From positions 1 through 38,438 of IMG/VR virus record IMGVR_UViG_3300048589_000170: a stretch of 38,438 bases of DNA; one strand, 5' to 3'. The first letter of the stretch is position 1; the number at the start of each line of letters is the position of its first letter. Shown one piece after another: positions 1 through 30,621 of the stretch. The notes under the pieces were generated by a model. That model saw nothing but the letters and a program-made list of their open reading frames with translations, made no database searches and was not told the DNA's origin. Source of the DNA: a virus. The translations under genes were made by a program, and so were the position numbers.

Positions 1-210
1 GCCCCGGCCCGCGTCACCCAGGTGCGGCAGTTGCCGGTTCACGCCCCGGCCCGCGTCACCCAGGTGCGGCAGTTGCCGGTTCACGCCCCGGCCCGCGTCA
101 CCCAGGTGCGGCAGTTGCCGGTTCACGCCCCGGCCCGCGTCACCCAGGTGCGGCAGTTTCCGGTTCACGCCCAGGCCCGCGTCACCCAGGTGCGGCAGTT
201 GCCGGGCATC
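1..210 (-). repeat. Five 42-bp tandem repeats coding a 14-residue repeat
   Basis: Units lie at 1-42, 43-84, 85-126, 127-168 and 169-210. The first three are identical; the fourth has one change (Q to K) and the fifth differs at both ends. On the minus strand each unit codes VNRQLPHLGDAGRG, so the array is an in-frame insert in the middle of the DNA adenine methylase. The unit length is a multiple of three, so slippage keeps the frame open. The copy number cannot be trusted, because the contig ends lie inside the same repeat. Confidence 0.95.
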
Positions 211-666
211 CACCAGCTTCTCACCGTCATGCACCCACGGGCCGGTTCCGCTGCACCAACCCGAGCCGATCCAGTTGCACGCGCCCCAGCACCACCAGCC
301 GGCAATCTTGGCGTCGTAGTAGTCCGGGTCGGCCTCAAGCCGCTGCAGTAGCCCTGGCGCATTGCGCACCAGCCACGAGTGCCGCGCAATCAGATCTGCC
401 TCGTTCGTGGGCCAGTCAACATGCCGTGCCACCTCTGCCGCATCCAGCGACACCGCGCGCCAGAAGTTCGCCACAAAGCCATCCGCATCGTTGATCGTTT
501 CCACCTTGCCTACGTTCGGGCGTCCCAGCAGCATGGCGGCCGAACCAGCGAACGGCTCCACGTAGTTCTCGGGGTCGCCCAACGCGGCCCACACTGTCTC
601 GCACGCCAGCGACTTCCCGCCAAAGTAGGGGAAGGGTGCTGCCAGGGTGCCTGCTACTGACTTCAT
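1..666 (-). CDS. dam: DNA adenine methylase (D12 class), N-terminal part; continues at the right end
   Basis: This codes for a SAM-dependent N6-adenine DNA methyltransferase, which would mark phage DNA, for example against host restriction. Translation starts at the ATG at 666, after GGTGGAG. The motif FPYFGGKS is at residues 12-19 and the SAM-binding EPFAGS at about 37-42. The frame stays open to base 1, giving 222 codons, and continues in frame at 38280 once the 158-base end overlap is removed. The target-recognition region (about residues 153-222) is expanded by five 14-residue repeats. The joined protein would be about 366 residues; D12 methylases are usually 270-300. The gene is the sole content of cassette C1, with attC1 just upstream of its start. 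The family assignment is strong. The number of repeats is uncertain. Confidence 0.93.
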   Translation of the reverse strand, partial: MKSVAGTLAAPFPYFGGKSLACETVWAALGDPENYVEPFAGSAAMLLGRPNVGKVETINDADGFVANFWRAVSLDAAEVARHVDWPTNEADLIARHSWLVRNAPGLLQRLEADPDYYDAKIAGWWCWGACNWIGSGWCSGTGPWVHDGEKLVDARQLPHLGDAGLGVNRKLPHLGDAGRGVNRQLPHLGDAGRGVNRQLPHLGDAGRGVNRQLPHLGDAGRG

Positions 667-686
667 CTGTTCTCCACCAAGAAGTG

Positions 687-744
687 CCCTAACACGTCAT
701 TCCACCGGACGGCCTACGGCCGCCGGTGAATTCCAGCGTTAGGC
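687..744 (+). other. attC1 (58 bp)
   Basis: The left core is CCCTAAC (687-693) and the right core GTTAGGC (738-744). The arms CACCGG-A-CGGCC and GGCCG-CCGGTG pair with one extra A in the left arm and a TA-rich turn between them. This is a textbook attC hairpin, with its top strand on plus. It lies between the methylase start and the stop of the 117-residue gene, whose TAA is formed by the core TTA at 739-741. Confidence 0.9.
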
Positions 745-1092
745 AGCACAGCCCGTGGCCTTCGCAATGGCCTCGCGTGCCTGCTGCACCACGTACTTCA
801 TGCCGGGGTTCGTGCTCGGGCTGTCCATGTCGAATCGGTCGGCGTAGTCGGCGGCAATTTCCCGCAGCGCCATAAGTAGGTCAGGCGCGGCCCCAATCAG
901 CTTCGCATTGGCCTGGTTCTGGTCCGAGTTGTTCACGTTGCTCACACTGGCCACGCGGTAGTAGTTCTCTGCAGCCGGGTCTTTGCTGCCGGCGCTAATG
1001 TCAAAGCGGCCCCACTGCGCATGCTCGCCGCTGGCAGTGCGCCATTCGTCAGCAGTCGCTGTATGCCAAGGCCCTGGTGTGTGGTTGCTCAT
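739..1092 (-). CDS. Small phage protein of the NHTPGPW type (cassette C2)
   Basis: The protein has 117 residues. It starts MSNHTPGPWH and contains the segment NAKLIGAAPDLLMALREIA, a pattern seen in many small phage proteins of unknown function. The ATG at 1092 follows a good ribosome-binding site (GAGGAAA). The TAA stop is supplied by the attC1 core. There are no membrane segments and no catalytic motif that I recognise. The gene fills cassette C2 and is antisense to the cassette's attC polarity, so it depends on the leftward phage operon for expression. Confidence 0.8.
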   Translation of the reverse strand: MSNHTPGPWHTATADEWRTASGEHAQWGRFDISAGSKDPAAENYYRVASVSNVNNSDQNQANAKLIGAAPDLLMALREIAADYADRFDMDSPSTNPGMKYVVQQAREAIAKATGCAA

Positions 1093-1118
1093 ACGTTTCC
1101 TCGTTGTTCAACAGTGCT

Positions 1119-1217
1119 GCCTAACACGTCGCTGCACCTGAGAGCCAACGGCTCCACCTCGGGTGCGTCTGCTTGCTTGGTCACGGCCGTTGTCTCCAGG
1201 TGAGCTAGGCGTTAGGG
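1119..1217 (+). other. attC2 (99 bp)
   Basis: The cores are GCCTAAC (1119-1125) and GTTAGGG (1211-1217). The outer arms CACCTG-A-GAG and CTC-CAGGTG pair with the diagnostic extra A on the left. A second stem, AACGGC with GCCGTT, lies inside. The left flank GTGCTGCCTAA (1114-1124) is complementary to the start of its own cassette C2 (TTAGGCAGCAC, 739-749). Confidence 0.85.
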
Positions 1218-1496
1218 TGCAAAGTGGTACTTCCTTCGCACCGATCTCAAAATCATCTGCTCCAGCGGCAGCCAATCCACATATGGCATGCTGTAGTGCC
1301 ATCGGTGCCATTCGTCCCATTCGGCGCTGTCAATGTCTGGCTCGCTTTCGCAGTCGAGTTCGATTTCGGTTGCAATCCATTCTCCGGTTGCCTCATCGAG
1401 TTCCGTTCCTGCGCCAGCATCAAGCAGCAGACCCCCTCCGCAAATCGGGCATTTGGCCTTAATCCGCAAAGGAGCGCGGTCTTTTGGCCAAAGCAC
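1212..1496 (-). CDS. Small acidic Cys-motif phage protein (cassette C3)
   Basis: This is a protein of about 94 residues. It has a KCPICGGG zinc-ribbon-like knuckle near the start, an acidic middle and a C-terminal YSMPYVDWLPLEQM motif that recurs in small phage proteins. TAA is formed by the attC2 core at 1212-1214. The start is uncertain: no ATG lies between the attC sites in this frame. A GTG at 1496, inside the attC3 left core, or a TTG further in are the candidates; the frame is also open upstream through attC3. The function is unknown. Confidence 0.65.
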   Translation of the reverse strand: MLWPKDRAPLRIKAKCPICGGGLLLDAGAGTELDEATGEWIATEIELDCESEPDIDSAEWDEWHRWHYSMPYVDWLPLEQMILRSVRRKYHFAP

Positions 1497-1576
1497 CCTA
1501 ACATTGCGGTCCAGCGGACGTGCCGCCAGCGTCGCTTCGCTCCTAGTCGTCACTCCGCTGACCTCCAGCGTTAGGC
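1496..1576 (+). other. attC3 (81 bp)
   Basis: The cores are CCCTAAC (1496-1502) and GTTAGGC (1570-1576). The arms CAGCGG-A-CG and CCGCTG pair with the extra A on the left. The inner stem is less regular, with AGCG-TCGCTT-CGCT at its tip. The flank GCACCCTAA (1493-1501) is complementary to the start of C3 (TTAGGGTGC, 1212-1220). The C-terminus of the gene to the right reads 28 bases into this site. Confidence 0.8.
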
Positions 1577-2013
1577 CCCAAGGCCGCTTCCCACGCAGCC
1601 CGCAGCCGCGCAAGGTGCTCGGTGTTCATGTGGCCGTCGTCCAGCAGCCATTCCACCGCCTGCATCAACGGCTTGTGGCGCTCCAGCTCGGCCGCGTAGG
1701 TCTCGGCAGCCTTGCTCCAGGTGTACGCCTCGCGGGCCAGCCGCTCGTTGTCTTCACGCATCCGGCTGCGGCCTTTTGTCAGCCCGTCCCTGGCGTATTG
1801 CAAGTCATGCTTCAGCGCGGCGTTCTCCGCCTCCAGCCTTGCCAGCATCTCGGCCGTAATCGGAAACCAACTCTCAAGGCTGCTGTCCTCGCGCCAGCGC
1901 CGGCCTATCTCAGCATCCTTGCAGTCGCACGGCAGGTATACGGGCTCGCCCCACGGGTGCGTGCCGCCGCTGTCGCGCTCTCCGGTGTCGTTGCACTCAG
2001 GGCAGGTCGTCAT
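1543..2013 (-). CDS. Phage protein with Cys knuckles and coiled coil (cassette C4, second gene)
   Basis: The protein has 156 residues. The N-terminus has CPECNDTG and then CDC, a DnaJ-like zinc-finger pattern. The middle (about residues 50-110) is a charged helical or coiled-coil stretch, and the end reads LLDDGHMNTEHLARLRAAWEAAL. The ATG at 2013 overlaps the stop of the 50-residue gene upstream, suggesting translational coupling. The gene does not stop in its own cassette: it reads through the core at 1570 and ends at 1543 inside attC3, so its last residues depend on the neighbouring cassette. The function is unknown. Confidence 0.75.
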   Translation of the reverse strand: MTTCPECNDTGERDSGGTHPWGEPVYLPCDCKDAEIGRRWREDSSLESWFPITAEMLARLEAENAALKHDLQYARDGLTKGRSRMREDNERLAREAYTWSKAAETYAAELERHKPLMQAVEWLLDDGHMNTEHLARLRAAWEAALGPNAGGQRSDD

Positions 2014-2149
2014 CGTCGTCTTCCTCCGCGTGGTCGTCTAGGTCGAACACTTCGCCACAGGCCGCGCAGCGTTGCAGCCGGTCGTCCTGCGGGTCTTCCT
2101 CGTCATCGAACTGGTACACGGTCTTGCAACCGCACTTTGGGCAGGCCAT
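1997..2149 (-). CDS. 50-residue zinc-ribbon protein (cassette C4, first gene)
   Basis: This short gene starts MACPKCGCKTVY and has a second knuckle, CAACGEVFD, giving a CPxC/CxxC zinc ribbon, followed by a very acidic tail (about residues 36-48). It overlaps the ATG of the next gene by 17 bases. With that gene it makes C4 a two-gene cassette. The role is unknown; small zinc ribbons of this form are common in phage early regions. Confidence 0.7.
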   Translation of the reverse strand: MACPKCGCKTVYQFDDEEDPQDDRLQRCAACGEVFDLDDHAEEDDDDDLP

Positions 2150-2174
2150 CGTCTGCGCGCTCCGGTTGGTTGGG

Positions 2175-2226
2175 GCCTAACACTTCGTTCCAGCCGACCT
2201 ACGGCGGCTGAACTCGGGCGTTCAGC
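2175..2226 (+). other. attC4 (52 bp)
   Basis: The cores are GCCTAAC (2175-2181) and GTTCAGC (2220-2226); the right core departs from GTTRRRY at one base. The arms CAGCCG-A-C and G-CGGCTG carry the extra A. The site resembles the compact aadA-type attC. The flank TTGGGGCCTAA (2170-2180) is complementary to the start of C4 (TTAGGCCCCAA, 1571-1581). Confidence 0.85.
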
Positions 2227-2227
2227 G

Positions 2228-2485
2228 TCAAGGCTGTCCAATCGCGCCGCTTGTCGTTCTGTTCCGGCCTTCGACTACGCCACCATCCCCGCGCTTCGGT
2301 TTTCCGCCGCACTTCTCGCGCGGTCCATTGCAGCCCCAGCATGGGTTGTCACCTGCCTGAACTACTGCCATCACCGTCATGCCCCCAAGCAAGCAGTTTT
2401 GGGGCACGTAGCCCTGCATCTTCGCCATCCCGAGCAGGTGGTCATCTCGGTCGGACTTGCCCTGTTCAAAGTAGTGCACTTTCAT
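2228..2485 (-). CDS. Small cysteine-containing phage protein (cassette C5)
   Basis: This is an 85-residue protein starting MKVHYFEQGKSDRDD. It has a central CWGCNGPREKCGG motif that could bind a metal, and a Gly/Lys/Arg-rich tail. The start at 2485 is chosen because AGGAG lies eight bases upstream; an upstream ATG at 2524 lies in attC5 without such a site. The stop is just inside the C5 boundary. The function is unknown. Confidence 0.7.
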   Translation of the reverse strand: MKVHYFEQGKSDRDDHLLGMAKMQGYVPQNCLLGGMTVMAVVQAGDNPCWGCNGPREKCGGKPKRGDGGVVEGRNRTTSGAIGQP

Positions 2486-2510
2486 CGTTCGTTCTCCTGT
2501 GTAAGTTGCC

Positions 2511-2579
2511 GCCGAACCAGCCAATCAAGCGGACAGTCAGCCGGGTACGTCTGCCTGCCGCTTATCGGCGGCGTTATGC
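2511..2579 (+). other. attC5 (69 bp, degenerate left core)
   Basis: The right core is GTTATGC (2573-2579). The arms AAGCGG-A-CAG and CTG-CCGCTT pair with the extra A. The left core GCCGAAC (2511-2517) has one mismatch to RYYYAAC, as does the start of its own cassette (TTCAGC), so both ends of C5 are off-consensus in a nearly matching way. Confidence 0.7.
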
Positions 2580-3194
2580 AGCAACAGCCGGCGTGCCAGC
2601 TTTCTGCGCGTCATAGGTGGCAATGGCCCACTCCAGCGCGTGGCAGCACCACAGAAAGCGGTGCGTCCACACCTTGCAGTCGCGCTCCCAGTCTTGGAAG
2701 CGGAAGCCGTCGTGCTCGAACTCCCACAGCGCCACCCAGGCGTGGTGCTCGCTGTCTTCGGCGGCGGCGCACACCTGTTCGTCAATCTCGCTCCACAGCG
2801 CAGCCTTCCGCGCCTCGGGCCAATCTTCATCGTCGCTGGTGTGTTGGTCGAAGTAGTCGCGCACCTCCGCGCGGAACTTCTTTTCGCTCCACTCGCGCAC
2901 GCCGTCGCCCTTGTCGCTGGCTTCCAGCTTCTCGGCCCAGTACCGCAGGTCAATGCGGTACTGGCCGCGGCTCTCGCCGCGCCGGAAGAACTGGAACATG
3001 TCCTCCAGCCGCCGGAAAACGTATGTGCCCATGTCGCCCGTGTAGCAGAGGTAGCCCGGCCAGGTCAGCAAGTCGAAGTGCATGCACATCGTGTTCGGTC
3101 GCTTGAACCGCAGGTGTCGGCTCACGCCGTCGTCGCGGATCACCTGCATCTGGTGCTGGGCAATGTCGCCAGTGAATTGGTCTGCAAAGGTCAT
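2574..3194 (-). CDS. Phage protein with DMGTYVFRR motif (cassette C6)
   Basis: This is a 206-residue soluble protein rich in aromatic and acidic residues. It contains the segment DMGTYVFRRLEDMFQFFR (about residues 54-71), which I associate with conserved phage proteins of unknown function. The ATG at 3194 follows GGTGGAG, the same leader motif as the methylase. TAA is supplied by the attC5 right core. No catalytic motif is visible. It is the largest complete gene of the array. Confidence 0.8.
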   Translation of the reverse strand: MTFADQFTGDIAQHQMQVIRDDGVSRHLRFKRPNTMCMHFDLLTWPGYLCYTGDMGTYVFRRLEDMFQFFRRGESRGQYRIDLRYWAEKLEASDKGDGVREWSEKKFRAEVRDYFDQHTSDDEDWPEARKAALWSEIDEQVCAAAEDSEHHAWVALWEFEHDGFRFQDWERDCKVWTHRFLWCCHALEWAIATYDAQKAGTPAVAA

Positions 3195-3216
3195 CGTGTT
3201 TCTCCACCAAGTTGCT

Positions 3217-3278
3217 GCATAACACTTCGCTCAAGCGGGACGCCCGCAAGCGGGCGCCTCTTAGCTCAAGCGTTATGC
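3217..3278 (+). other. attC6 (62 bp)
   Basis: The cores GCATAAC (3217-3223) and GTTATGC (3272-3278) are exact complements. The inner stem CGCCCGC-AA-GCGGGCG is perfect, and the outer arms pair imperfectly around an extra A. The spacing and the words CTTCGCTCAAGCG and TAGCTCAAGCG closely resemble classical 59-base elements. The flank is complementary to the start of its own cassette C6 over 12 bases. Confidence 0.9.
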
Positions 3279-3644
3279 AGCACCAATTACCCACTCGGCA
3301 GGCAGCGCAGCCTTTGCCGTGCGGATCAGGTCTTCCATCGACCATTGGTCGGGCCGCGATCCATCGTCAACGTCCATTTGCAGCCTGCGCACAATGCAAT
3401 CCAGTGCGGCGGCCATCGCTGGCGCTGCGGCGGCCAGCTTAGCACTGGCAAGCGCGCGTTGCCCAACCTCTGAGTGCTCCGGGAAACTCGGCCCGTACAC
3501 AAAGCCCACCGGCTCAGTGCCAGGGCCGCGCTGCAAGCCAAACAGCAGCGGGTCGTCGTTGCCCGTCACCCACGGCCCAAGGCGCTGCATAACTGTCGGT
3601 TCAACTTGACCCGCAAGGGCGGGCGGCAGTGTGGCGTTACTCAT
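3273..3644 (-). CDS. Small phage protein (cassette C7), start codon inside attC7
   Basis: This is a 123-residue protein. The C-terminal half has the ASAKLAAAAPAMAAALDCIVRRL pattern, broken here by AAAP, which resembles the LIAAAPDLL motif of small phage proteins. The ATG at 3644 has an ideal AGGAG site, and both lie in the apical loop of the attC7 hairpin; the first 17 or so codons form one arm. TAA comes from the attC6 core. The function is unknown. Confidence 0.75.
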   Translation of the reverse strand: MSNATLPPALAGQVEPTVMQRLGPWVTGNDDPLLFGLQRGPGTEPVGFVYGPSFPEHSEVGQRALASAKLAAAAPAMAAALDCIVRRLQMDVDDGSRPDQWSMEDLIRTAKAALPAEWVIGAA

Positions 3645-3688
3645 GCTTCTCCTAGCGCCCTTGCGGGCAAGTTAACCTAGCGTTAGGC
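3587..3688 (+). other. attC7 (102 bp), last site of the array
   Basis: The cores are GCATAAC (3587-3593) and GTTAGGC (3682-3688). The arms AACTTG-A-CCCGCAAGGGCG and CGCCCTTGCGGGCAAGTT pair over 18 bp with a single extra A on the left. The loop holds the ribosome-binding site and start codon of the C7 gene on the other strand. Right of this core the ordinary phage operon resumes. Confidence 0.9.
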
Positions 3689-3982
3689 CCGCGGATCTCG
3701 CCCCCCCCAAAGCACTCGCACCCGCTCCCAATCATCTCGGTCACAGTCCCACCCGAGTGGCTTGTACTGGTTTCCGGCCGCGCGCGCTCGGTCGTCGGCC
3801 TCAAATGCCTCTTCAACATCCCGGCGGATGACGTCCTGCGCTTTGGCGCTGATGTTCAGCCACTGGTCTATCAACCAGTCCTTGCAATCGCCGACGATGT
3901 AGCTCTTCCGACCCAAGCAATAGCGCACGGCGGCGACCGCCATCAGGTCACCGCGTCCGTAGTGTTTCTTTCTGCGGGTCAC
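3683..3982 (-). CDS. Phage early protein, unknown function
   Basis: This is a 99-residue basic-then-acidic protein (starts MTRRKKHYGRGDLMAVAAV). It overlaps the preceding gene by four bases (ATGA at 3979-3982), so it is part of the backbone operon. Its TAA is formed by the attC7 right core (3682-3688), which marks the right edge of the inserted array. If the array were removed, the core would join 37835 to this gene. No motif is recognised. Confidence 0.75.
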   Translation of the reverse strand: MTRRKKHYGRGDLMAVAAVRYCLGRKSYIVGDCKDWLIDQWLNISAKAQDVIRRDVEEAFEADDRARAAGNQYKPLGWDCDRDDWERVRVLWGGRDPRA

Positions 3983-4254
3983 GATTGATCCTTCATCGCC
4001 TGCACGGCGTTCTCGCTGCCGCTCAAGTACACAGCCGCCAGCGTCTCCTGAAGCGTGGCGCCCGCGTTCACCATGTCCGTGTATATCGACAGGGCGATGC
4101 GCTCAATGCACTCTCGGTGATCGGCTGGCAGGCTGATGCAGGCCATGCCGCGCGGCTTGATGTGGCGCAGCGCAAGCCTCCGGCTGATGTGCAGCGGAGA
4201 TAGGTGTGCGGGCGTCAACGGCCGCGATGTACGGGCGGATGTACGGGCTGCCAT
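3979..4254 (-). CDS. Phage early protein, unknown function
   Basis: This is a 91-residue protein with a basic, Arg/Ser/Thr-rich N-terminus and a helical C-terminal part (ECIERIALSIYTDMVNAGAT). The start at 4254 is chosen because it overlaps the upstream stop (TGATG). An internal ATG at 4146 (MACISLPADHRE) would give a 54-residue product covering only the likely folded part. Confidence 0.65.
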   Translation of the reverse strand: MAARTSARTSRPLTPAHLSPLHISRRLALRHIKPRGMACISLPADHRECIERIALSIYTDMVNAGATLQETLAAVYLSGSENAVQAMKDQS

Positions 4255-4472
4255 CACACCACCTCCCAAGCCGGCACCCATCTCGGCGCCGGCCTGCTGT
4301 TCACGATCGCATCAAACGGCATCGGCACGGTCGCCAGCTCCTCTAGCATCTCCTGCTCGGCCAGCAGCGCAGACAGTTCGTCGCGGCGGCCGACGTGCCA
4401 GCCGAAGTGCTCCCGCAGCGCCTGTATGCGCTCGCGGCCGTGGAGTTCTCGCGCGTATGCAACCGGGATCAT
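4254..4472 (-). CDS. Phage early protein, unknown function
   Basis: This is a 72-residue helical protein. It starts MIPVAYARELHGRERIQAL at 4472, where ATG overlaps the preceding stop as ATGA. No signal, membrane segment or known motif is visible. It is part of the ERF operon. Confidence 0.65.
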   Translation of the reverse strand: MIPVAYARELHGRERIQALREHFGWHVGRRDELSALLAEQEMLEELATVPMPFDAIVNSRPAPRWVPAWEVV

Positions 4473-4678
4473 TTCACGCTCCAAGCATCGGAAGTCGCCT
4501 TGATGCGCGACCGCATTGCAAGGCCCTGAAGCGCAGATCGCAAAGCGGCATCCGGCAGCTTGGTTTGCGCGCGCAGAGACTCAAACGACAATCCGCCGCG
4601 CTTGTTGAGCGCCAGCAGGATTGCGACAGATTCGTCAGACCCTTCGGCAGAGGGCGATAGATCCTGTTCGTACATCAT
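4469..4678 (-). CDS. Small winged-helix-like protein
   Basis: This is a 69-residue protein. The segment SVAILLALNKRGGLSFESLRAQTKLPDAALRSALQGLAM has the spacing of a winged helix-turn-helix. The start at 4678 (or 4675) overlaps the stop of the ERF gene. A role as a regulator or DNA-binding accessory to ERF is possible but not shown. Confidence 0.65.
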   Translation of the reverse strand: MMYEQDLSPSAEGSDESVAILLALNKRGGLSFESLRAQTKLPDAALRSALQGLAMRSRIKATSDAWSVK

Positions 4679-5298
4679 TTCGTTACCGCTCGCGCGTGCG
4701 ACTTGAGTGCGGATCGCACATTGCTTGGGAGCTTTGACCACATATATACCTTTTCCTCATCGGGGAGCTTTTCCATGTCGATACGCTCATGTGCCGACTC
4801 GACGCCGAATGCGCTGAAGTCGTCAATAACGGTAAGCGCCAGTTCGTCCAGCGCGTCCATTCGGTCCTGAGAGATATTGACTGCTTCAAGGTAGTCTGAG
4901 ACGACGCCGCCTTTCTTGGCTGGCTTCTTCGCCGCCGCGTTTCCGTCGTCATCCTCTGGCGCGATGCCGCACGCAGCCATGAGCGAGTACCGGCGAGCGT
5001 AGGTCATGGCAGACCCGTAGCCCTGCGCGTCAGCCTTTGATGCCGGGACGTGCAAAGGACCGCTCGAAAGCATCTCGCCAGACTCGTGCACAAACACCGT
5101 CTCAATCGTGATGCCGGTATCGCAGGCTATGTTGCGCTGCATAAGCGCGATGCCGTTAGCGTTGAGCGAGTCAATGACGGCTTCCACGCACGCTGCGAGG
5201 TCGGCATAGCGCGATTTGAAGTGCGGATTCGTCGCGCTTTTGAGTGCAGGGCCAAAGGCTTTCTGAGCCTTGACCAGTGCGGATGCGATCTTGTCCAT
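4675..5298 (-). CDS. erf: ERF-family single-strand annealing recombinase
   Basis: This is a 207-residue protein with the ERF core: LVKAQKAFGPALKSATNP, then HFKSRYADLAACVEAV and, further on, GYGSAMTYARRYSLMAACGI (about residues 92-111), the family's signature. ERF proteins anneal complementary single strands in phage recombination and genome circularisation (known from P22 Erf). A Lys-rich linker (AAKKPAKKGG) separates a C-terminal acidic domain of unknown role. This is the only recognisable recombinase in the window. It does not cut attC sites, although it could act on repeats. Confidence 0.9.
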   Translation of the reverse strand: MDKIASALVKAQKAFGPALKSATNPHFKSRYADLAACVEAVIDSLNANGIALMQRNIACDTGITIETVFVHESGEMLSSGPLHVPASKADAQGYGSAMTYARRYSLMAACGIAPEDDDGNAAAKKPAKKGGVVSDYLEAVNISQDRMDALDELALTVIDDFSAFGVESAHERIDMEKLPDEEKVYMWSKLPSNVRSALKSHARAVTK

Positions 5299-5308
5299 GA
5301 TGATGGTC

Positions 5309-5416
5309 CTAGAACGGCAGCCGACGCACCGCGATGCGCCAGGCGGTTGACAGCGCGTACAGCTTCGGATGGTGGCGCCTGTACATACGGTAAATGGTGA
5401 TGAATTCGCGGATCAT
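5309..5416 (-). CDS. 35-residue basic phage protein
   Basis: The start is at 5416, where ATG overlaps the upstream stop (ATGA). The product is a short, basic, aromatic peptide (starts MIREFITIYRMYRRHHP) of a type often found in phage early operons. It is perhaps amphipathic and membrane-associated. The function is unknown. Confidence 0.6.
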   Translation of the reverse strand: MIREFITIYRMYRRHHPKLYALSTAWRIAVRRLPF

Positions 5417-5586
5417 TGGTGCACCCATGCGATAAGGATGGCGCATCCTACGGCGGCCGCAACAATCGCGATAGCTAGGACAAACCCTAACGCCGCGTCC
5501 CACAGGTCAACCTGTTCGGCGCGGCAAAGGTCCGGCGTAGGGCACTCTTTGCGGCCTTGGTTGCAGTCGGCTGAACAGTGGATCAC
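5413..5586 (-). CDS. 57-residue membrane protein with N-terminal cysteines
   Basis: The GTG at 5586 overlaps the upstream stop as GTGA, and the stop overlaps the next ATG as ATGA, so both limits are well supported. Residues 4-23 hold four Cys in the pattern HCSADCNQGRKECPTPDLC, followed by a single hydrophobic segment (ALGFVLAIAIVAAAVGCAIL). The Cys pattern followed by a transmembrane helix recurs in small phage proteins. The function is unknown. A TAGG-ACAAA-CCCTA operator-like word lies inside the gene at 5476-5489. Confidence 0.7.
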   Translation of the reverse strand: MIHCSADCNQGRKECPTPDLCRAEQVDLWDAALGFVLAIAIVAAAVGCAILIAWVHQ

Positions 5587-5846
5587 GGTTCTTCCCCGGC
5601 GTGAACAAGCGCCACATTCGCGATTTTCACAAGCCGCATAGCGTCATCATCGCCACCGGCTGCGGACTCTGGAATGCACGAAAGGTAGTCTCTGCACTGG
5701 CGCAATGCGTCGATGAGCCTTGCTTTCTCCGCCATGAGCGTTTTACGATGCCTGTCGTATCTGTCTCGCTCGCTGATGATGCGGTTAATCTCAGACTCAA
5801 CGTCATCAAGTTGCGAGAGAATGCGCGCGCCGATATTGAATGTCAT
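5583..5846 (-). CDS. Coiled-coil phage protein
   Basis: This is an 87-residue protein, starting MTFNIGARILSQLDD at 5846 (ATGA overlap with the gene upstream). Residues 10-55 form a charged helix (DVESEINRIISERDRYDRH) likely to be a coiled coil. The function is unknown. Confidence 0.65.
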   Translation of the reverse strand: MTFNIGARILSQLDDVESEINRIISERDRYDRHRKTLMAEKARLIDALRQCRDYLSCIPESAAGGDDDAMRLVKIANVALVHAGEEP

Positions 5847-6010
5847 TGCAGCGCCTCCAAAAGCCAAAAGGCGAACCCGACGCCGACAGCGACAGCCAGG
5901 CACCACTCCGTGATGCGGTCATACCTCCGCACCTTGGCAGCTTCAATGGATGCCGCATAGCGCACGGCGTCGAATGACTGACGGCGCGTCAGGTTGTCGT
6001 CGTCAGTCAT
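5843..6010 (-). CDS. 55-residue single-span membrane protein
   Basis: The gene is short, with ATGA overlaps at both ends. The N-terminal half is charged (MTDDDNLTRRQSFDAVRYA). The C-terminal half holds one transmembrane helix (CLAVAVGVGFAFWLLEAL). It is one of two tiny membrane proteins in this operon. The function is unknown. Confidence 0.65.
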   Translation of the reverse strand: MTDDDNLTRRQSFDAVRYAASIEAAKVRRYDRITEWCLAVAVGVGFAFWLLEALQ

Positions 6011-6249
6011 GCTGCCTCCGCTTTGTACTGGCTCGCCAGCGCGTCAGTGAGCATGTCCCGGAGCGTCTCGGCCTGATCCTGCTTCAGCCGCAGGGAACAT
6101 CCGACGCCTGAACCGCCCGACGCTATGATCTGAGCCGTCAGTTCGCCTGTTATCTTGTCGCGGCTGATGTGGATCGTGACGGTTTCGTCACTCGCGCCCT
6201 GCGCGTATGTGTCGAACTCGGAACGATGAAAGTGCGGATGCATCATCAT
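6007..6249 (-). CDS. Phage early protein, unknown function
   Basis: This is an 80-residue protein with a His-rich start (MMMHPHFHR), a beta-prone middle (ETVTIHISRDKITGELTAQI) and a helical end (QDQAETLRDMLTDALASQY). It is separated from the first gene of the operon by only six bases. The function is unknown. Confidence 0.65.
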   Translation of the reverse strand: MMMHPHFHRSEFDTYAQGASDETVTIHISRDKITGELTAQIIASGGSGVGCSLRLKQDQAETLRDMLTDALASQYKAEAA

Positions 6250-6255
6250 GACTTG

Positions 6256-6486
6256 TCATCCTTCAGCCAGCCGGCTCAGCCAGCCGGCCGCCTCGTACAT
6301 GATCGACCGAGCGGCGAGCATGTCGCCCATGCGGATCGCATCGCGGGCCATCGCCATCAGCTCGGTAGCTTCTTCCATGTCGAGCAGCATCCCTTCCGCC
6401 TCGTCGTCATCCTCGGTGCGAGGGTCGTTCGGGTGGCCGGTAGGGGAGCCCCATGTCTGTTCGTCGCCTGGTCCGTAGTCGATCAT
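6256..6486 (-). CDS. First gene of the leftward operon, acidic protein
   Basis: This is a 76-residue acidic protein. The start at 6486 (MIDYGPGDEQTW) is chosen because GGGAGAC precedes it. The C-terminal half is helical (EATELMAMARDAIRMGDML). It lies about 70 bases downstream of the operator at 6555-6571 and so is probably the first to be expressed. The function is unknown. Confidence 0.65.
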   Translation of the reverse strand: MIDYGPGDEQTWGSPTGHPNDPRTEDDDEAEGMLLDMEEATELMAMARDAIRMGDMLAARSIMYEAAGWLSRLAEG

Positions 6487-6554
6487 CTTGCGTCTCCCGC
6501 GCCGCACCGTGCAGCGCATGAGTGAAAGTATCGGCCCCGTTTTGCTTCGACTCC

Positions 6555-6571
6555 ATAGGGACAAACCCTAA
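6555..6571. promoter_or_regulatory. Operator-like palindrome TAGGG-N5-CCCTA (site 1)
   Basis: TAGGG-ACAAA-CCCTA lies directly upstream of the leftward operon. On minus it follows TATCTT, a possible -10 element, although no good -35 is seen. Similar palindromes occur at 7036-7052 and 7719-7734, so a repressor binding site is likely (inference). Confidence 0.6.
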
Positions 6572-6607
6572 GATAAGAGAAAAAACAAGTGTTCGCTGTA
6601 GCGAAGA

Positions 6608-6656
6608 GACAAGGAGGCCCTACCCACGCTTCCGCGTGAGTTTGGGCCTCCTTGTC
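6608..6656. other. Long hairpin with 13-bp perfect arms
   Basis: GACAAGGAGGCCC (6608-6620) pairs exactly with GGGCCTCCTTGTC (6644-6656). The loop contains a second stem, CACGC-TTCC-GCGTG (6625-6638). No U-run follows on either strand, so it is not an ordinary intrinsic terminator. It could be a protein-binding or RNA-processing element. Confidence 0.6.
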
Positions 6657-6886
6657 CTAGCTGCCGACACCGACCCGGTCGGAAGCAGGCCCGTCATGTC
6701 ACCACAGACAGAGGACGGCGGCGCTCATACAGTCCCGGTGTGATCCGGTCAATCCCCACGCATATGAGCTTCGGCTGCGCTTGTGGTCAGGGGCTACACG
6801 AGTTCCACTCTCACGCGCTGCCCTGCGTCCAACGCCAGTTTTTACGGGGCGTCTCACCTCGACATGCGCGCCAGTCTGTAGGGACG

Positions 6887-6965
6887 AAAAAAGGCCGCTT
6901 GGTCTCTGTTCGCGCCCCATGTGCCAGCATGAGACCCCTTTCGGGTGAACAGAGGCCAAGCGGCC
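6887..6965 (-). terminator. Intrinsic terminator of the leftward small RNA
   Basis: A 19-bp stem (arms 6947-6965 and 6893-6911) is followed on minus by TTTTTT (6892-6887). The loop is long (35 bases) but folded. No leftward coding gene lies upstream, so the terminator appears to serve a non-coding transcript. Confidence 0.6.
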
Positions 6966-6993
6966 AATGATCGTGCATCTGCTGGCACAGACA
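6887..6993 (-). ncRNA. Candidate ~107-nt structured RNA with pseudoknot
   Basis: Read leftward, a TTGACA/TAGACT promoter (7027-7000) would start a transcript near 6993. It would end in a 19-bp stem (6965-6947 with 6911-6893, one G-U pair) followed by six U. In its loop, ACCC-GAAA-GGGGU forms a small tetraloop hairpin. The loop word TGCTGGCAC (minus, 6929-6921) is complementary to GTGCCAGCA near the 5' end (6988-6980), allowing an H-type pseudoknot. No protein frame with a ribosome-binding site is present. The structure is seen; expression and function are inferred. Confidence 0.55.
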
Positions 6994-6999
6994 GCCTGA

Positions 7000-7027
7000 A
7001 GTCTACGCCACCCACTATCCGTGTCAA
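7000..7027 (-). promoter_or_regulatory. Leftward sigma70-type promoter
   Basis: There is a perfect TTGACA (7027-7022), a 16-base spacer and TAGACT (7005-7000). The operator-like palindrome at 7036-7052 lies just upstream of the -35 box. The promoter drives the candidate small RNA and perhaps, by read-through, the leftward operon. Confidence 0.6.
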
Positions 7028-7035
7028 GCGGTGAA

Positions 7036-7052
7036 CTAGGGAAAACCCCTAG
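7036..7052. promoter_or_regulatory. Operator-like palindrome (site 2)
   Basis: CTAGGG-AAAA-CCCCTAG contains TAGGG-AAAAC-CCCTA (7037-7051). It sits between the leftward small-RNA promoter and the rightward promoter. It matches sites 1 and 3. Confidence 0.6.
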
Positions 7053-7243
7053 AGACGGGAAGCTGGGAGCGGGTAGAGTTTTAACGCAGAGTTAACCGGC
7101 CCGTGGAGGCCGTAGGCCGTAACGGGTCCGGTTGGACGACGGGTTAGCCGGCTGGCTGAGCAACTTACGGGCGGTGGCGTACTCCCACAAGACACAAATA
7201 TCCGGGCCGTGTGCCGCCCACCAAAAAAAGATGAAAAAACCTC

Positions 7244-7273
7244 TTGCGTTACCGGAAACGAAGGCACTAGAAT
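7244..7273 (+). promoter_or_regulatory. Rightward early promoter
   Basis: TTGCGT (7244-7249), an 18-base spacer and TAGAAT (7268-7273) place a start near 7280. That is about 20 bases before the AGGAG and ATG of the first rightward gene. Confidence 0.6.
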
Positions 7274-7298
7274 AGAGCCATCGCAACAGGAGATTCAA

Positions 7299-7487
7299 AT
7301 GAAGGCAAGCATCTACACCCTGAACAACGGCACCGAAGTGGCCTACCAGCGCGGCACCAGCCGAGTGGTTACCAACAAAGCAGGCGAAATTCTGCGGCAC
7401 GAAGTCAAGGAAGCCGGCGCATGGCGCGAAGCTCGCGGCTACTTCAAGCCCCGCTTCATTGAGATGGTGAAGGGAATGCTCAAGTGA
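7299..7487 (+). CDS. First rightward early gene, small basic protein
   Basis: This is a 62-residue protein (MKASIYTLNNGTEVAYQRGT) with ATG at 7299, seven bases after AGGAG. It is beta-prone then basic-helical (FKPRFIEMVKGMLK). It directly follows the rightward promoter and overlaps the next gene by GTGA. The function is unknown; early regulatory proteins are often this size. Confidence 0.7.
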   Translation: MKASIYTLNNGTEVAYQRGTSRVVTNKAGEILRHEVKEAGAWREARGYFKPRFIEMVKGMLK

Positions 7488-7678
7488 ATAAGGCCCGAAA
7501 GGGCCTTGCGCCCAAGACAACGGCCGAGCGCGTGGCGGCCATGCGAGCGGCCCGCGATGCTCTAGGCCTGAAACGCCTAGAGCTGTATGCGCACCCGGAA
7601 GACTGGCCGCAAATCAAGGCGCTGGCCGAGAAGCTACAGCGCAAACGGGCAAGACTGCTGGCACGCGGTGCCGGCTAA
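7484..7678 (+). CDS. Small basic protein, possible ribbon-helix-helix regulator
   Basis: This is a 64-residue protein starting at GTG 7484 in a GTGA overlap. It has a basic helical part (TTAERVAAMRAARDALGLKR), then LELYAHPEDWPQIKALAEKL. The strand-helix-helix order and size resemble ribbon-helix-helix repressors, but the match is not decisive. It is a candidate for the protein that binds the TAGGG palindromes (inference from position only). A perfect hairpin AAGGCCC-GAAA-GGGCCTT (7490-7507) covers its first codons and could limit translation. Confidence 0.65.
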   Translation: MNKARKGLAPKTTAERVAAMRAARDALGLKRLELYAHPEDWPQIKALAEKLQRKRARLLARGAG

Positions 7679-7681
7679 CTA

Positions 7682-7734
7682 GGTGTTATGGCGCACATCT
7701 GCCGCATAACACCAAACACTAGGGTTTGCCCTAG
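7682..7734. promoter_or_regulatory. Hairpin followed by operator-like palindrome (site 3)
   Basis: GGTGTTATG (7682-7690) pairs with CATAACACC (7705-7713), without a U-run. Directly after it, CTAGGG-TTTG-CCCTAG (7719-7734) is a perfect palindrome related to sites 1 and 2. It lies in the only gap of the early rightward operon and may separate a second control point. Confidence 0.55.
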
Positions 7735-7787
7735 TTCACAAGCATCCAAGCCTGACCGATGATTGAGCCATCAACCGGGAGCAAGAC

Positions 7788-8006
7788 ATGCGCAACATCA
7801 CCGAAGAAGTCGCACAGCAGATTATCGGCATGGTAAACCCGCTGAACGAAAGCGCCGCGCTGTGCTTGGCAGACGCCGAAAAGTGCATGGCAGATGGCCG
7901 GTACGATTACGCGGCAGGCCGGGCGCTGCACGCCATTTCGCACGTTAGCGGAGTGTGCAGCGACACCTACCAGCGCGCCTGCGAACTCTGCGAAACGTGC
8001 TTCTGA
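7788..8006 (+). CDS. Phage early protein, unknown function
   Basis: This is a 72-residue protein with ATG at 7788 after GGGAG. It is helical with four Cys in the C-terminal half (SGVCSDTYQRACELCETCF). It overlaps the next gene as TGATG. The function is unknown. Confidence 0.7.
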   Translation: MRNITEEVAQQIIGMVNPLNESAALCLADAEKCMADGRYDYAAGRALHAISHVSGVCSDTYQRACELCETCF

Positions 8007-8260
8007 TGGACAAAGATCGAGTGCTCAAAGCCGCGCTCAAGCGACAGCAAGAGGTCGCAAACTTGTGCGACAGGCTTGAAGGCGTGGCGCTTTGCATGCG
8101 TGGCGACATGCTGCCAGGCGCCCGCCTTGTCCTCGACGCGGTTTACCAGCTGCGGAACCTTACCGGGCTGGATCAACAAGTTTCCCCCACTGGCGGCAGC
8201 GATGCCGTGCCTTCGCTCGCTGAGAGCGTTCCTCCCCGCAATCCGCAGTTGCCGGACTAG
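8006..8260 (+). CDS. Phage early protein, unknown function
   Basis: This is an 84-residue protein (MDKDRVLKAALKRQQEVAN) with a helical N-terminal part and a Ser/Pro-rich tail. The start overlaps the upstream stop. A stretch near its end (CCCCGC ... GCGGGG and six T at 8275-8280) could act as a weak terminator. Confidence 0.65.
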   Translation: MDKDRVLKAALKRQQEVANLCDRLEGVALCMRGDMLPGARLVLDAVYQLRNLTGLDQQVSPTGGSDAVPSLAESVPPRNPQLPD

Positions 8261-8295
8261 TGAGCGAGGCGGGGTTTTTTACACTAGGAGAGAAG

Positions 8296-8505
8296 ATGGC
8301 AAACAAATACGCCACGCAAGGGCGGTGCCTCATCATCGCGCTCAAGAAGCGACCGCACACGTACATGGAGATGCTCGCTCATGGGGTATCCACAAGTCCC
8401 TGGAGAAGAATTGTGGAAGGCCTGCGGCACGATGAGAAGCTGGTCAAGGGCCAGCGTTGGCTCGGCGATCAGAAGCTGACGACTTGGCGGGTGGTGAAGG
8501 CATGA
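8296..8505 (+). CDS. Winged-helix-like small protein
   Basis: This is a 69-residue protein starting MANKYATQGRCLIIALKKR at 8296 after AGGAG. The layout (helix, short HTH with YMEMLAHGVSTSPWRRIVEGL, then a wing with GQRWLGDQKLTTWRV) fits a winged helix of the kind used in phage replication initiators or regulators. The in-frame GTG at 8260 is less likely, as it has no ribosome-binding site. Confidence 0.65.
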   Translation: MANKYATQGRCLIIALKKRPHTYMEMLAHGVSTSPWRRIVEGLRHDEKLVKGQRWLGDQKLTTWRVVKA

Positions 8506-8849
8506 TCCCACTCCCCGCCTACATAGACCCCGAAGCCTGGGACGGCTATGTCGAGATGAGGCGCGCGATCAAGAAGCCACTGACAAAGCGAGCTGCCGTG
8601 TCTCTGCTGTGCAACCTGCAAGAGCTAAAGGACAAGGGGCACGACGTCAACGCGGCATTAGACCAATCGACCTTCTGCTGCTGGCGTGGTGTGTTCCCGG
8701 CAAAGGATCGGTGCATTGAGCGAGCGCCAGAGACTAAGGAGCAGTACGCGGCTAGGGAGCGCGCAGAGCGCCAGGCAGAGAAGGCGCGCGCTGCGCCGAT
8801 GCCTGACGAGGTGCGCGCCAAACTGGCAACGCTGAGGCGAGTGGCATGA
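8502..8849 (+). CDS. Replisome-organiser-like C-terminal domain protein
   Basis: This is a 115-residue protein. The pattern AWDGYVEMRRAIKKPLTKRA, then LLCNLQELKDKGHDVNAALDQS and CWRGVFP is that of the short C-terminal domain found in phage DnaT/replisome-organiser-type proteins. It lies directly after a winged-helix gene (ATGA overlap), so the two may form a split replication initiator (inference). The remainder is a charged helix. Confidence 0.65.
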   Translation: MIPLPAYIDPEAWDGYVEMRRAIKKPLTKRAAVSLLCNLQELKDKGHDVNAALDQSTFCCWRGVFPAKDRCIERAPETKEQYAARERAERQAEKARAAPMPDEVRAKLATLRRVA

Positions 8850-9130
8850 TTGCCTGTATGGGGGGTTTCTGTGCGAAAAGGAACGGCTGTGCCAACTACC
8901 TTGCCGTTGATCGACGAAATCCCGTCGAACGACTGTGCGGACCCGTCGAAATGCCCACCCGGAGTGGTCAACCGGAGTTGCAGGCATTGTCGACTACGGC
9001 ACATCCGCAACGGCCCGGCATTCTGGGCGAGCGAGAAGGCGGGAGCGATGAGCCGGACATATCGGCTGCAACTCATCGCGGAATTCGGGAAAGACTTTTT
9101 GAATGGGCACAAGATCGTGAAAGGCATCAA
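8846..9130 (+). CDS. Cys-motif phage protein read from the ATGA start (frame 1)
   Basis: The ATG at 8846 overlaps the previous stop (ATGA). The frame begins MIACMGGFCAKRNGCANY and continues to NPVERLCGPVE, a cysteine pattern that I recognise from small phage proteins. The frame then loses protein-like character at about 8955. It has no stop and runs in frame into the winged-helix gene at 9131. Either it is the N-terminus of a fusion, or translation shifts into the +1 frame. The coordinate given for the end is nominal. Confidence 0.45.
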
Positions 9131-9134
9131 GTGA
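8871..9134 (+). CDS. Overlapping Cys-motif protein (frame 2)
   Basis: This frame, shifted +1 relative to the one starting at 8846, codes NDCADPSKCPPG and NRSCRHCRLRHIRNGPAFWA followed by a helical tail. Its TGA overlaps the GTG of the next gene (GTGA), which supports its end. Its start is unclear: GTG at 8871 after a G-run, or a frameshift from the upstream frame. The function is unknown. Confidence 0.5.
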   Translation: MRKGTAVPTTLPLIDEIPSNDCADPSKCPPGVVNRSCRHCRLRHIRNGPAFWASEKAGAMSRTYRLQLIAEFGKDFLNGHKIVKGIK

Positions 9135-9832
9135 CTGGCGGACTAAACAGCAGGCGCGCGGAGGTAGTGGGGCACTTCGAGGCGGCCGCGGAAAAAGGCA
9201 TCGACACGCACGAACTCGGCAAGCTGCTGGGCCTGACGCACGGCGCAGCACAGCACCATATCGAGACCCTGCGGCACTCGGGCGAGATCATCAAGTCCGT
9301 GCAGGCCAACGGTAACCGTCCGGCGCGCTACTGGCTGGCGCAGTACACGGACGCGGCGAAAGCGCATCGCTACCCGTTCGTCCCGGCTCCGAAGGTCGCA
9401 AAGTCCAAGCAAGCGAAGGCCGCGCCCATCGCGGACAAATGCCTAGCGATCATCAGGAGCGCAGGGCGGCAAGGCATCAACACCGCTGACTTGGCCGAGA
9501 AGATGGGCATGTCACGCGGGTCGGTCCTAAACCGCATCCAAGCCGCGCGAGTGGCCGGCCTGATCGTCAGGCTGTGGGACGGCACGAAGAACTCTCCGGC
9601 ATACTGGTACATCGCAGGGTGCGATCCGATTAGTCCGCCAAAGACGACGACCATCCGTGCGGCGAACACCGGACTCGACAAAACCGCTCCGGCGATCATC
9701 CCGAAAGGGCTCAAGATCACGAAGTGCCCGAGCGCAGACCCGAATGGGCGGTGGAAAGCCACGCAAGCCCCCCAAGTCGTCAACAGCCAGGAGTCGCGCC
9801 CATGGGCAGCCGCGCTTACTGCGAGAAACTGA
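9131..9832 (+). CDS. Protein with two winged-helix domains
   Basis: This is a 233-residue protein. Two repeats of a winged HTH are visible: residues about 8-70 (GIDTHELGKLLGLTHGAAQ, then RPARYWLA) and about 100-165 (GINTADLAEKMGMSRGSVL, then SPAYWYIAG). A basic linker (KVAKSKQAKAA) joins them. It probably binds DNA as a regulator or replication accessory. The GTG start at 9131 is supported by the GTGA overlap. Confidence 0.75.
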   Translation: MTGGLNSRRAEVVGHFEAAAEKGIDTHELGKLLGLTHGAAQHHIETLRHSGEIIKSVQANGNRPARYWLAQYTDAAKAHRYPFVPAPKVAKSKQAKAAPIADKCLAIIRSAGRQGINTADLAEKMGMSRGSVLNRIQAARVAGLIVRLWDGTKNSPAYWYIAGCDPISPPKTTTIRAANTGLDKTAPAIIPKGLKITKCPSADPNGRWKATQAPQVVNSQESRPWAAALTARN

Positions 9833-10278
9833 CCAAGAAATACACGTCCGGGCAAATGGACGCATCGGACAAGGAAATACTGCGTGTGATCGAGTATGCG
9901 GAGACTGGCGTGTCAGCCAAGGCCGTAGCCATTGAGGTCGGGCAGGCTCACAATACAGTCGGGTCGAAGCTGCGCGTGATGAAAAACCTAGGGCTGATCG
10001 GCAAGGTCGGAGAATCACACTATGCAGTGTGGTGTACGTTGGATAGAGTCGAAGTGATCACATACTTGATAGACGAGCGGCATCTAGAGTCAGCAAAGCG
10101 CAAGGGGGCGCACGCTGTCCGTGCGTTTTTGGCCCGACGCGGCCGGTCTGACGACTGGATCAAGCGCCCGAGCGTCGAGCGGTCAATGCAAGACGAACCG
10201 GTTCAGATATGGCGCAAGGCCGGAGAGTGGGCCACGCTGCCTATCCGTGGGCCGGTGAGCGTGTGGGATCTGGCATGA
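9802..10278 (+). CDS. Winged-helix DNA-binding protein
   Basis: This is a 158-residue protein, starting MGSRAYCEKLTKKYTSGQM at 9802 with AGGAG upstream. The HTH region (ETGVSAKAVAIEVGQAHNTV, then KNLGLIGKV) is followed by a wing (SHYAVWCTL). It overlaps the previous gene by 31 bases and the next by ATGA. It makes a third winged-helix domain in a row. The function is unknown beyond probable DNA binding. Confidence 0.7.
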   Translation: MGSRAYCEKLTKKYTSGQMDASDKEILRVIEYAETGVSAKAVAIEVGQAHNTVGSKLRVMKNLGLIGKVGESHYAVWCTLDRVEVITYLIDERHLESAKRKGAHAVRAFLARRGRSDDWIKRPSVERSMQDEPVQIWRKAGEWATLPIRGPVSVWDLA

Positions 10279-10607
10279 CAGAACCCATCGACCCGCAAAA
10301 GCACCTAGCCCGCATGTGGGAGACGGCGCCTAAGCTGGCGCAAGCCAAGGCAGACAGGATCTACATTGAGGAATTCCGCAAAAGCCTGAAGGCAAGGCTC
10401 ATGAAAGAGTGCGAAGAGTCGGCCATAGGCGCACAGGAGCGGGAAGCCTACGCGCATCCTGACTATGTGGCACACCTAGAGGCACTACGGCACGCGGTGC
10501 AGGCAGAGGAGCAACTGCGCTGGCGGATGGTCTCGGATCAGGCTGCGGTCGAGGTGTGGCGGTCGATGGAAAGTTCGGCAAGGGCGATGGATCGAGGCAC
10601 AAGGTGA
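10275..10607 (+). CDS. Helical phage protein preceding the HNH gene
   Basis: This is a 110-residue, mostly helical charged protein (HLARMWETAPKLAQAKADRI, then SLKARLMKECEESA). It starts in an ATGA overlap. Its size and position before an HNH-type gene recall conserved phage recombination-region proteins. The function is unknown. Confidence 0.65.
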   Translation: MTEPIDPQKHLARMWETAPKLAQAKADRIYIEEFRKSLKARLMKECEESAIGAQEREAYAHPDYVAHLEALRHAVQAEEQLRWRMVSDQAAVEVWRSMESSARAMDRGTR

Positions 10608-10873
10608 GGAGCAAGAACCAGTCTCCCATCACAAAGCAAGAGCGCGAACACCTGGCAGCCGTCAAGGATCTGCCCTGCTCGATCTGCGACGCCCCAGGCC
10701 CATCGGACGCGCACCACATCAACCAAGGGCAGCACTTCACGACAATTGCCCTGTGCAAAGACTGCCACCAAGGGACTAAACTAGGCTGGCACGGCGAGAA
10801 ACTCGCGTGGAGGGTGCGTAAGATGGACGAACTGGCGGCGCTTAACGTCACCCTGCGGCGTTTGATGGCATGA
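10604..10873 (+). CDS. HNH-type (Ref-like) nuclease
   Basis: This is an 89-residue protein. A zinc-binding CSICDAPG is followed by DAHHINQGQHF and ALCKDCHQG, which is the Cys/HH/CxxCH framework of HNH or Ref-family His-Me nucleases; GWHG follows. GTG at 10604 overlaps the previous stop. It probably nicks or cuts DNA in recombination or repair, as known for P1 Ref. The exact family is uncertain. Confidence 0.75.
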   Translation: MRSKNQSPITKQEREHLAAVKDLPCSICDAPGPSDAHHINQGQHFTTIALCKDCHQGTKLGWHGEKLAWRVRKMDELAALNVTLRRLMA

Positions 10874-11106
10874 CCCTGCCCGCCGACGTCACCAGATGCC
10901 GCCCGGCCGGAGTGTGCGCCGTCAAGGAAACATGCCTACGCTACACATCCCCGGTGCCTGACATGGGCTCGGTAAGCGATTTCCTCCTGACCCGCACCGC
11001 TCCCCTATGGCTGGACTGCAATGCCCGCATCCCGGTAAGCGATGCCGAGAAGTATCAGCCAGCGCCAGCGACGCCCAAAGCTAGACCGTGGCCAGGTGAT
11101 GCATGA
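10870..11106 (+). CDS. Small Cys-motif phage protein
   Basis: This is a 78-residue protein starting MTLPADVTRCRPAGVCAVK. It has four Cys (CRPAGVC, CLRY, LDCNARIP) that could bind zinc, and a Pro-rich tail. It overlaps both neighbours by ATGA. The function is unknown. Confidence 0.65.
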   Translation: MTLPADVTRCRPAGVCAVKETCLRYTSPVPDMGSVSDFLLTRTAPLWLDCNARIPVSDAEKYQPAPATPKARPWPGDA

Positions 11107-11378
11107 GACGCGCAGCCCGTACGGACGCTAACCAAGCCTCAATCGTCAGGGCACTAAGAGACGCAGGCGCATCGGTCTACATCATCAAGCTACCGACTGA
11201 CCTACTGGTCGGATACCGTGGGCGAACCTTGATCGTCGAGGTCAAAGACGGCGACAAGGCGCCTAGTAAGCAGGCACTGACGAAAGTGCAAAGCGAATTC
11301 ATGTCAACATGGCGAGGCGGGCCGGTGGCAACGGTCAATAGCGTGGAGAGCGCACTACGGGCGATAAACTGCCTATAA
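11103..11378 (+). CDS. PD-(D/E)XK / VRR-NUC-like nuclease
   Basis: This is a 91-residue protein. RTDANQASIVRALRDAGA is followed by PTDLLVGYRGRTLIVEVKDG. The D...EVK core with the preceding hydrophobic strand is the PD-(D/E)XK pattern. The size and arrangement fit small phage VRR-NUC or Holliday-junction-resolvase-like enzymes. It closes the early rightward operon just before the terminase genes. Confidence 0.75.
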   Translation: MRRAARTDANQASIVRALRDAGASVYIIKLPTDLLVGYRGRTLIVEVKDGDKAPSKQALTKVQSEFMSTWRGGPVATVNSVESALRAINCL

Positions 11379-11444
11379 TTCGGACACTTGGACAAGTGAG
11401 TGTGTGCTAACAACGCGCACAATACTAGTTAGGAATAGATCGCA
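11379..11444. promoter_or_regulatory. Gap before the late genes with a perfect palindrome
   Basis: CACTTG-GA-CAAGTG (11385-11398) is a perfect 14-base palindrome. A TATAAT word lies just before it at 11374-11379, without a good -35. It may be a control point for late genes, or the site recognised by the terminase. Confidence 0.4.
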
Positions 11445-15886: not shown

Positions 15887-15889
15887 TGC

Positions 15890-16861: not shown

Positions 16862-16870
16862 AGGGCTGCC

Positions 16871-17581: not shown

Positions 17582-17585
17582 GGCG

Positions 17586-19117: not shown

Positions 19118-19132
19118 ACAGGAGAGCGCGTA

Positions 19133-30620: not shown

Positions 30621-30621
30621 C

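Follow-up and report, generated by a model that had tools for sequence, protein, structure and literature searches.

The stretch of DNA analysed here (the window) is the IMG/VR virus record IMGVR_UViG_3300048589_000170, of 38,438 bp. It is a tailed phage, as it encodes a terminase, a portal protein, a scaffold protein, a major head protein, an endolysin and an Erf annealing protein. Both contig ends lie within a single 42-bp repeat inside a methylase gene, and the record was handled as circular because the open reading frame (ORF) of this gene reads on across the ends. The early operon of this phage runs in one direction through an array of seven integron-type cassettes, extending from an attI-like site (37804-37841) to a fixed phage gene (3683-3982). 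An original prediction, made from the sequence alone, had proposed such an array in a phage operon, with seven attC sites. All seven sites are present, and the array is supported by model matches and by cassette differences between relatives; the prediction had overlooked the methylase cassette (37836..738), a second locus (7085-7678) and the antisense genes.

A search of the window against Rfam matched no attC family, and we therefore built our own covariance model (R1), trained on 12 attC sites from a class 1 integron plasmid, a second plasmid and a Shewanella prophage integron. An earlier training alignment including Vibrio sites, the arm offsets of which differed, was discarded. R1 recovered six of the seven sites at their exact coordinates on the + strand (E-values from 8.7e-10 to 2.9e-4) and added an eighth on the - strand.

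attC1, 687-744, + strand: R1 score 46.8 bits, E 2.6e-9
attC2, 1119-1217, + strand: R1 E 1.8e-5
attC3, 1496-1576, + strand: R1 E 8.7e-10
attC4, 2175-2226, + strand: R1 E 2.1e-8; R' box GTTCAGC
attC5, 2511-2579, + strand: R1 E 2.9e-4
attC6, 3217-3278, + strand: R1 E 9.2e-8
attC7, 3587-3688, + strand: long-looped; top hairpin score of the window (31), z -4.15; matching cassette ends
attC8, 7079-7149, - strand: R1 E 3.6e-6

R1 gave no match at E ≤ 1 in 855 kb of control DNA surrounding 80 Erf genes of other phages. With the filters off, several sites scored lower or were only partly matched, and 1119-1217 was lost. No attC was found in ten relatives identified by their portal protein, and a plasmid search returned only short attC likeness. 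A hairpin-plus-box scan of the + strand yielded eight matches with scores of at least 17 and six with scores of at least 22, the corresponding means for 100 dinucleotide shuffles of the window being 2.1 (maximum 7) and 0.12 (maximum 3). Single-strand folding was better than in all 200 shuffles for six of the seven sites (z from -3.5 to -5.5), attC4 being weaker (z -1.9).

A cluster of attC sites without an integrase (CALIN) is recognised by at least two neighbouring attC sites with boxes and a hairpin, by units with matching ends and G^TT joints, and by the lack of an integron integrase gene. Six of the seven sites were identified here by the model and the seventh by its boxes and arms, and profile searches of the window detected neither the integron integrase TIGR02249 nor the tyrosine recombinase PF00589, in agreement with the prediction that no integrase gene is present. 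The units have the layout TTRRRY...gene...attC...G and are joined at G^TT. The left end of an integron cassette and the left box of its own attC come together in the cassette circle and therefore match. All seven cassettes show such matching, at 61 of 70 positions in total, which the true pairing alone, among 5040 permutations, reaches; exact edges were also observed in the exchanges described below.

cassette c0, 37836-38438 then 1-738 across the contig ends, + strand: ends with attC1; perfect 13-nt end match
c0 gene, 666 to 1 then 38438 to 37846, - strand: D12-type DNA methylase (phrog_56; MethyltransfD12 slightly below the Pfam cut-off)
cassette c1, 739-1211, + strand: ORF 739-1092, - strand, 117 aa, phrog_1273, stop codon in the R box
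cassette c2, 1212-1570, + strand: ORF on the - strand ending at 1212 in the R box, with no family match in protein-family searches
cassette c3, 1571-2220, + strand: ORFs 1543-2013 and 1997-2149 (zinc ribbon), - strand
cassette c4, 2221-2573, + strand: ORF at about 2228-2485, - strand
cassette c5, 2574-3272, + strand: ORF 2574-3194, - strand, 206 aa, phrog_4657 (E 7.5e-58), stop codon in the R box
cassette c6, 3273-3682, + strand: ORF 3273-3644, - strand, start codon within the attC7 loop
fixed phage gene, 3683-3982, - strand: phrog_11947, bounding the array

Several of these cassettes carry genes of phage protein families (the methylase and families without known function), and homologs of the c5 protein were found in 85 phage records, mainly of actinophages. 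In the attC7 loop (3635-3655), AGGAGAAGC-ATG supplies the c6 gene with a ribosome-binding site and a start codon, so that this gene begins inside its own attC. In-frame repeats of 42 bp (14 aa) follow one another within the methylase cassette (38281-38438 and 1-205), and the contig was cut at these repeats.

The second locus contains a single cassette ending with attC8, and each locus begins at an attI-like site.

site A, 37804-37841, + strand: attI-like, GTTATG, 31 nt, G^TTAGGG; start of the main array
site B, 7673-7710, - strand: attI-like, GTTATG, 31 nt, G^TTAGCC; start of the second locus
second-locus cassette, 7085-7678, - strand: ORFs 7299-7487 and 7484-7678 on the + strand, opposite the attC strand; ends match GTTAGCCGGC/GCCGGCTAAC

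The layout GTTATG-31-GTTAG occurs twice in the whole window, exactly at the starts of the two cassette loci. The attI1 site of class 1 integrons has a similar two-box layout, with a spacing of 32 nt. Elsewhere in the genome, a radical SAM protein with a SPASM domain is encoded at 22699-23652 (Pfam E 3.5e-10), amid virion structural genes, an odd location for such an enzyme.

Cassette differences between phages

The sister phage G001 (IMGVR_UViG_3300048592_000094; 35,304 bp) is about 97% identical to the window over most of its genome, but has a different array between the same two joints, site A and the gene at 3683-3982. Its first cassette holds another gene, its array has other attC arms, and the fixed gene, which it shares at 95% nucleotide identity, is followed by other attC arms. 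A further cassette of G001 matches c3 at both ends and differs in the middle. At the second locus, G001 carries another cassette behind a near copy of site B (30-nt spacing). The hairpins therefore vary between the two phages while the flanking genes do not, and relatives differ by whole cassettes, as the original prediction had anticipated for a mobile array, rather than having hairpins fixed with the genes. G001 also contains an HNH endonuclease gene (contig L088, 566-1186) that is lacking in the window between 6573 and 7003.

Site A is common to G001, G006 and G015, lying beside different cassettes in each. In G015 (L272), it is present twice (9041-9080 and 13380-13429), each copy starting cassettes and one being 96% identical to that of the window.

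A scan of viral contigs with one half of attC4 identified 12 contigs besides G001, all with attC matches. The first 20 nt of this 21-nt half are present in 13 viral contigs, whereas the full 21 nt had no match in genome contigs. A scan with the c1 protein led to phage G014 (41,278 bp), which has other portal and head families and 47% terminase identity. G014 contains the c1 core at high identity, with a left edge exactly at G^TTAGGC and attC arms that differ on both sides. Contig G005 carries the end of c3 and the whole of attC4, with full identity in approximately the final 100 bp before G^TT and divergence past it. The second-locus cassette of G001 was found in G015 with 99% identity over 127 bp from the joint onward, following an attI-like site in G001 and an attC in G015; both contigs terminate within this shared cassette, as assemblies do at repeats, and this match should be read with caution. 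G001 and G004 have a cassette end in common, with 88% identity across some 117 bp. We rejected a BLAST match that appeared to join attC1 with c1, as it reflected a family likeness of the arms, with high identity beginning at the joint.

Gene orientation and integron integrases on phage contigs

Under R1, attC1 scored 46.8 bits on the + strand and 9.7 bits on the - strand, and all cassette genes of the main array are on the - strand; the gene lies opposite the attC strand in 6/6 intervals. The genes do not therefore lie on the attC top strand, a trait that is usual for, although not strictly defining of, canonical integrons. Running antisense to the canonical attC strand, they would be transcribed in series by the phage operon, and most of them stop within the R box or close to it. 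An initial reading by eye, with the cassettes oriented in the sense of the genes, was ruled out by R1, the joints of the sister phage and the c3 edge. We extended the comparison to other arrays, calling gene strand with codon models; a count based on ORF length was dropped as too noisy in GC-rich DNA. In viral arrays, the gene was opposite the attC strand in 54-60 intervals and on the same strand in 4-5, and many viral cassette genes have their stop codon in the R box. In bacterial integron loci, found through integrase homology, one interval was opposite and 22-32 were the same, according to the training set used; many intervals gave no clear call. In a limited search of the literature, we found no description of this inverted orientation.

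A search of viral contigs retrieved 38 relatives of the integron integrase, 32 of which were full-length or nearly so. One of the contigs bearing the attC4 half, G004 (40.2 kb), is a siphovirus-like phage encoding a primase, both terminase subunits, a capsid protease and a tape measure protein. It encodes a 344-aa integron integrase adjoining its array, in which the active-site residues and the integron-specific insertion are conserved, as judged by eye from the alignment. The phage operon runs through the array into intI, which argues for the integrase being part of the phage; a trimmed prophage boundary is possible, since the contigs of G004 and of its near relatives have the integrase gene at their edge. 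A GTTAT, 31 nt, GTTRG-like layout is found upstream of several phage integron integrases, and site A has the same 31-nt layout. G004 combines intI, an attI-like site and an inverted array, whereas the window has the site and the inverted array without intI. The window thus differs from a phage-borne integron of the G004 type in lacking its own integrase, and from a canonical integron in having attI-like sites with no intI next to them.

In the maximum-likelihood tree, the integrases of 19 viral contigs and of three loci filed as bacterial formed one group (support 100/99), and six more viral integrases formed another. The three bacterial-filed loci could represent prophages or misbinning: one of them encodes an integrase identical to that of a viral contig, another has an inverted array beside its integrase, and the integrase of the third is carried by a contig of 3 kb. 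A single terminase family was found in 8 of the 11 integrase contigs tested. The Denitromonas halophila contig L137 (240-2684) carries a phage-clade integrase and an inverted array, possibly of a prophage in a cultured bacterium, which would make it a host lead. Loci L240-L247 belong to a second, separate viral integron-integrase clade (100/99); the array genes of L240 run with the attC sites, unlike those of the main phage clade.

Origin and movement of the cassettes

Taken together, these observations make it highly probable that the early operon of this phage harbours a true CALIN, an integron cassette array lacking an integrase gene, and that its cassettes pass between unrelated phages, an integron integrase supplied in trans being the most likely agent. 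We infer that an integrase made the joints, that it acted in trans and what its identity may be. An integrase supplied by a co-infecting or resident integrase phage, or by the host, would join cassettes at site A, site B or an attC, and the array would then be transcribed by the early operon; the candidate sources are a phage with its own integron integrase, attI-like site and the same inverted cassettes, or a host integron. The methylase and other such cargo may shield the phage from host defence. We also consider it probable, with somewhat less confidence, that phages keep an integron system of their own, with an integrase clade, attI-like sites and a shared pool of inverted phage-gene cassettes that integrase-less phages tap in trans.

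Several points weigh against this interpretation. The shared c1 segment of G014 has its right edge at the left box of attC2 rather than at G^TT, and its arms differ, so that canonical cassette excision did not act alone; c3 has a mosaic structure when the two sisters are compared. These two features show a further contribution, from homologous recombination or from use of the opposite box. Although attC7 (3587-3688) has boxes and long arms and its cassette ends match, R1 missed it, the large loop being the probable reason; the covariance check proposed in the original prediction was therefore passed by six of the seven sites, with a clean control. Given the negative TIGR02249 and PF00589 searches, neither the window phage nor G001 has an integron integrase or tyrosine recombinase. 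No excised circle or recombination event was observed, and all records other than the published controls are metagenomic.

The missing integrase would also fit true attC cassettes that are now fossil, captured once from an integron and later shuffled solely by phage homologous recombination (Erf) at conserved attC or gene sequences. The Erf gene lies close to the array (4675-5298), and the sharing of the c1 core without its arms and the mosaic c3 point the same way. We nevertheless judge this unlikely, as G^TT edges were found in three independent exchanges with no flanking homology on the other side, own-end matching is retained in every cassette, and two separate loci have different cassettes in the sisters. 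Plain terminator or regulatory hairpins fixed between genes would account for the location of the sites between genes of a single operon, but not for model matches with attC-specific features, end matching and whole-unit exchange, or for hairpins that differ between sisters when the flanking genes do not; the whole-cassette differences refute this reading, which we regard as highly implausible. We attach equally little weight to an assembly chimera of a phage and a bacterial integron. The records are all metagenomic, the contig ends in a 42-bp repeat, and G001 and G015 both stop inside their shared cassette, but the same joints occur in two sister genomes, the operon crosses the array in one direction, several cassettes hold phage-family genes, and the same architecture is found in more than 15 other viral contigs.

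A more serious alternative, overlapping as a sub-case with the preferred explanation of an integrase acting in trans, is that the cassettes are mobile but are moved by the integrase of a host chromosomal integron rather than by that of another phage. The original prediction held that movement would need a host integrase. The integrase is indeed absent here, but the host is not the sole candidate, since an integron integrase is also encoded by other phages that share this attC type. Host integrons are the usual source of CALINs, integron integrases are common in betaproteobacteria, and published phage attC sites are used by IntI1 (PMC9892861). However, bacterial integrons have the opposite gene orientation, the 21-nt attC4 half is found in no genome contig whereas its first 20 nt occur in viral contigs, the cassettes carry phage families, and an integrase phage has the same attC type. 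A host source is possible, but we consider it less likely than not.

Relation to known integrons and significance

The original prediction knew of no phage with such an array, but Qi et al. 2023 (PMC9892861) had reported 17 phage CALINs, together with a small number of complete phage integrons. Methylases were found as cargo, and phage attC sites were shown in the same study to recombine with attI1 through IntI1; a phage cassette array is not, therefore, new as a kind. The CALINs of virulent phages (TJE1, P12002L, PH101 and MW202573; PMC9892861) are similarly attC clusters without an integrase and with methylase cargo, whereas the array of the window is longer (seven cassettes, two loci), with resident attI-like sites and exchange between phages. 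In TJE1, our scan placed attC sites and genes both on the + strand, whereas the genes of the window are inverted relative to attC. The complete integrons of temperate phages (V. anguillarum p16, Shewanella M16-3 and P1 L-II; PMC9892861) also place an integron integrase and cassettes on phage DNA. In the Vibrio and P1 cases, phages were described as having captured a host or class 1 integron (PMC9892861), whereas the viral-contig integrases studied here fall into clades of their own, with inverted arrays. Class 1 plasmid arrays (L094 and L093) have the same R and L boxes, unpaired left-arm bases and G^TT joints, but their genes run with attC, their cargo consists of resistance genes and the integrase is adjacent. 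Spirochaete integrons with a reversed integrase gene (PMC9668308) also depart from the canonical orientation; there, intI is described as reversed, whereas in the phage arrays intI has the canonical orientation with respect to attC, and it is the cassette genes that are reversed.

As far as can be told, the new elements are the finding that phages exchange cassettes at the joints, the inverted gene orientation, the attI-like sites without an integrase and the phage integrase clades. Bacteria trade antibiotic-resistance genes through such swappable cassettes. If our interpretation is correct, a phage operon would express inverted cassettes, whereas their genes would run antisense to the promoter of a bacterial integron, and vice versa, and this inversion would, as a simple rule, hold the phage and bacterial cassette pools functionally apart. 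Site-specific cassette exchange between unrelated phages would likewise provide a defined mechanism for genome mosaicism at the level of single early genes, and phage-encoded integron integrases bear on the origin of integron integrases and cassettes.

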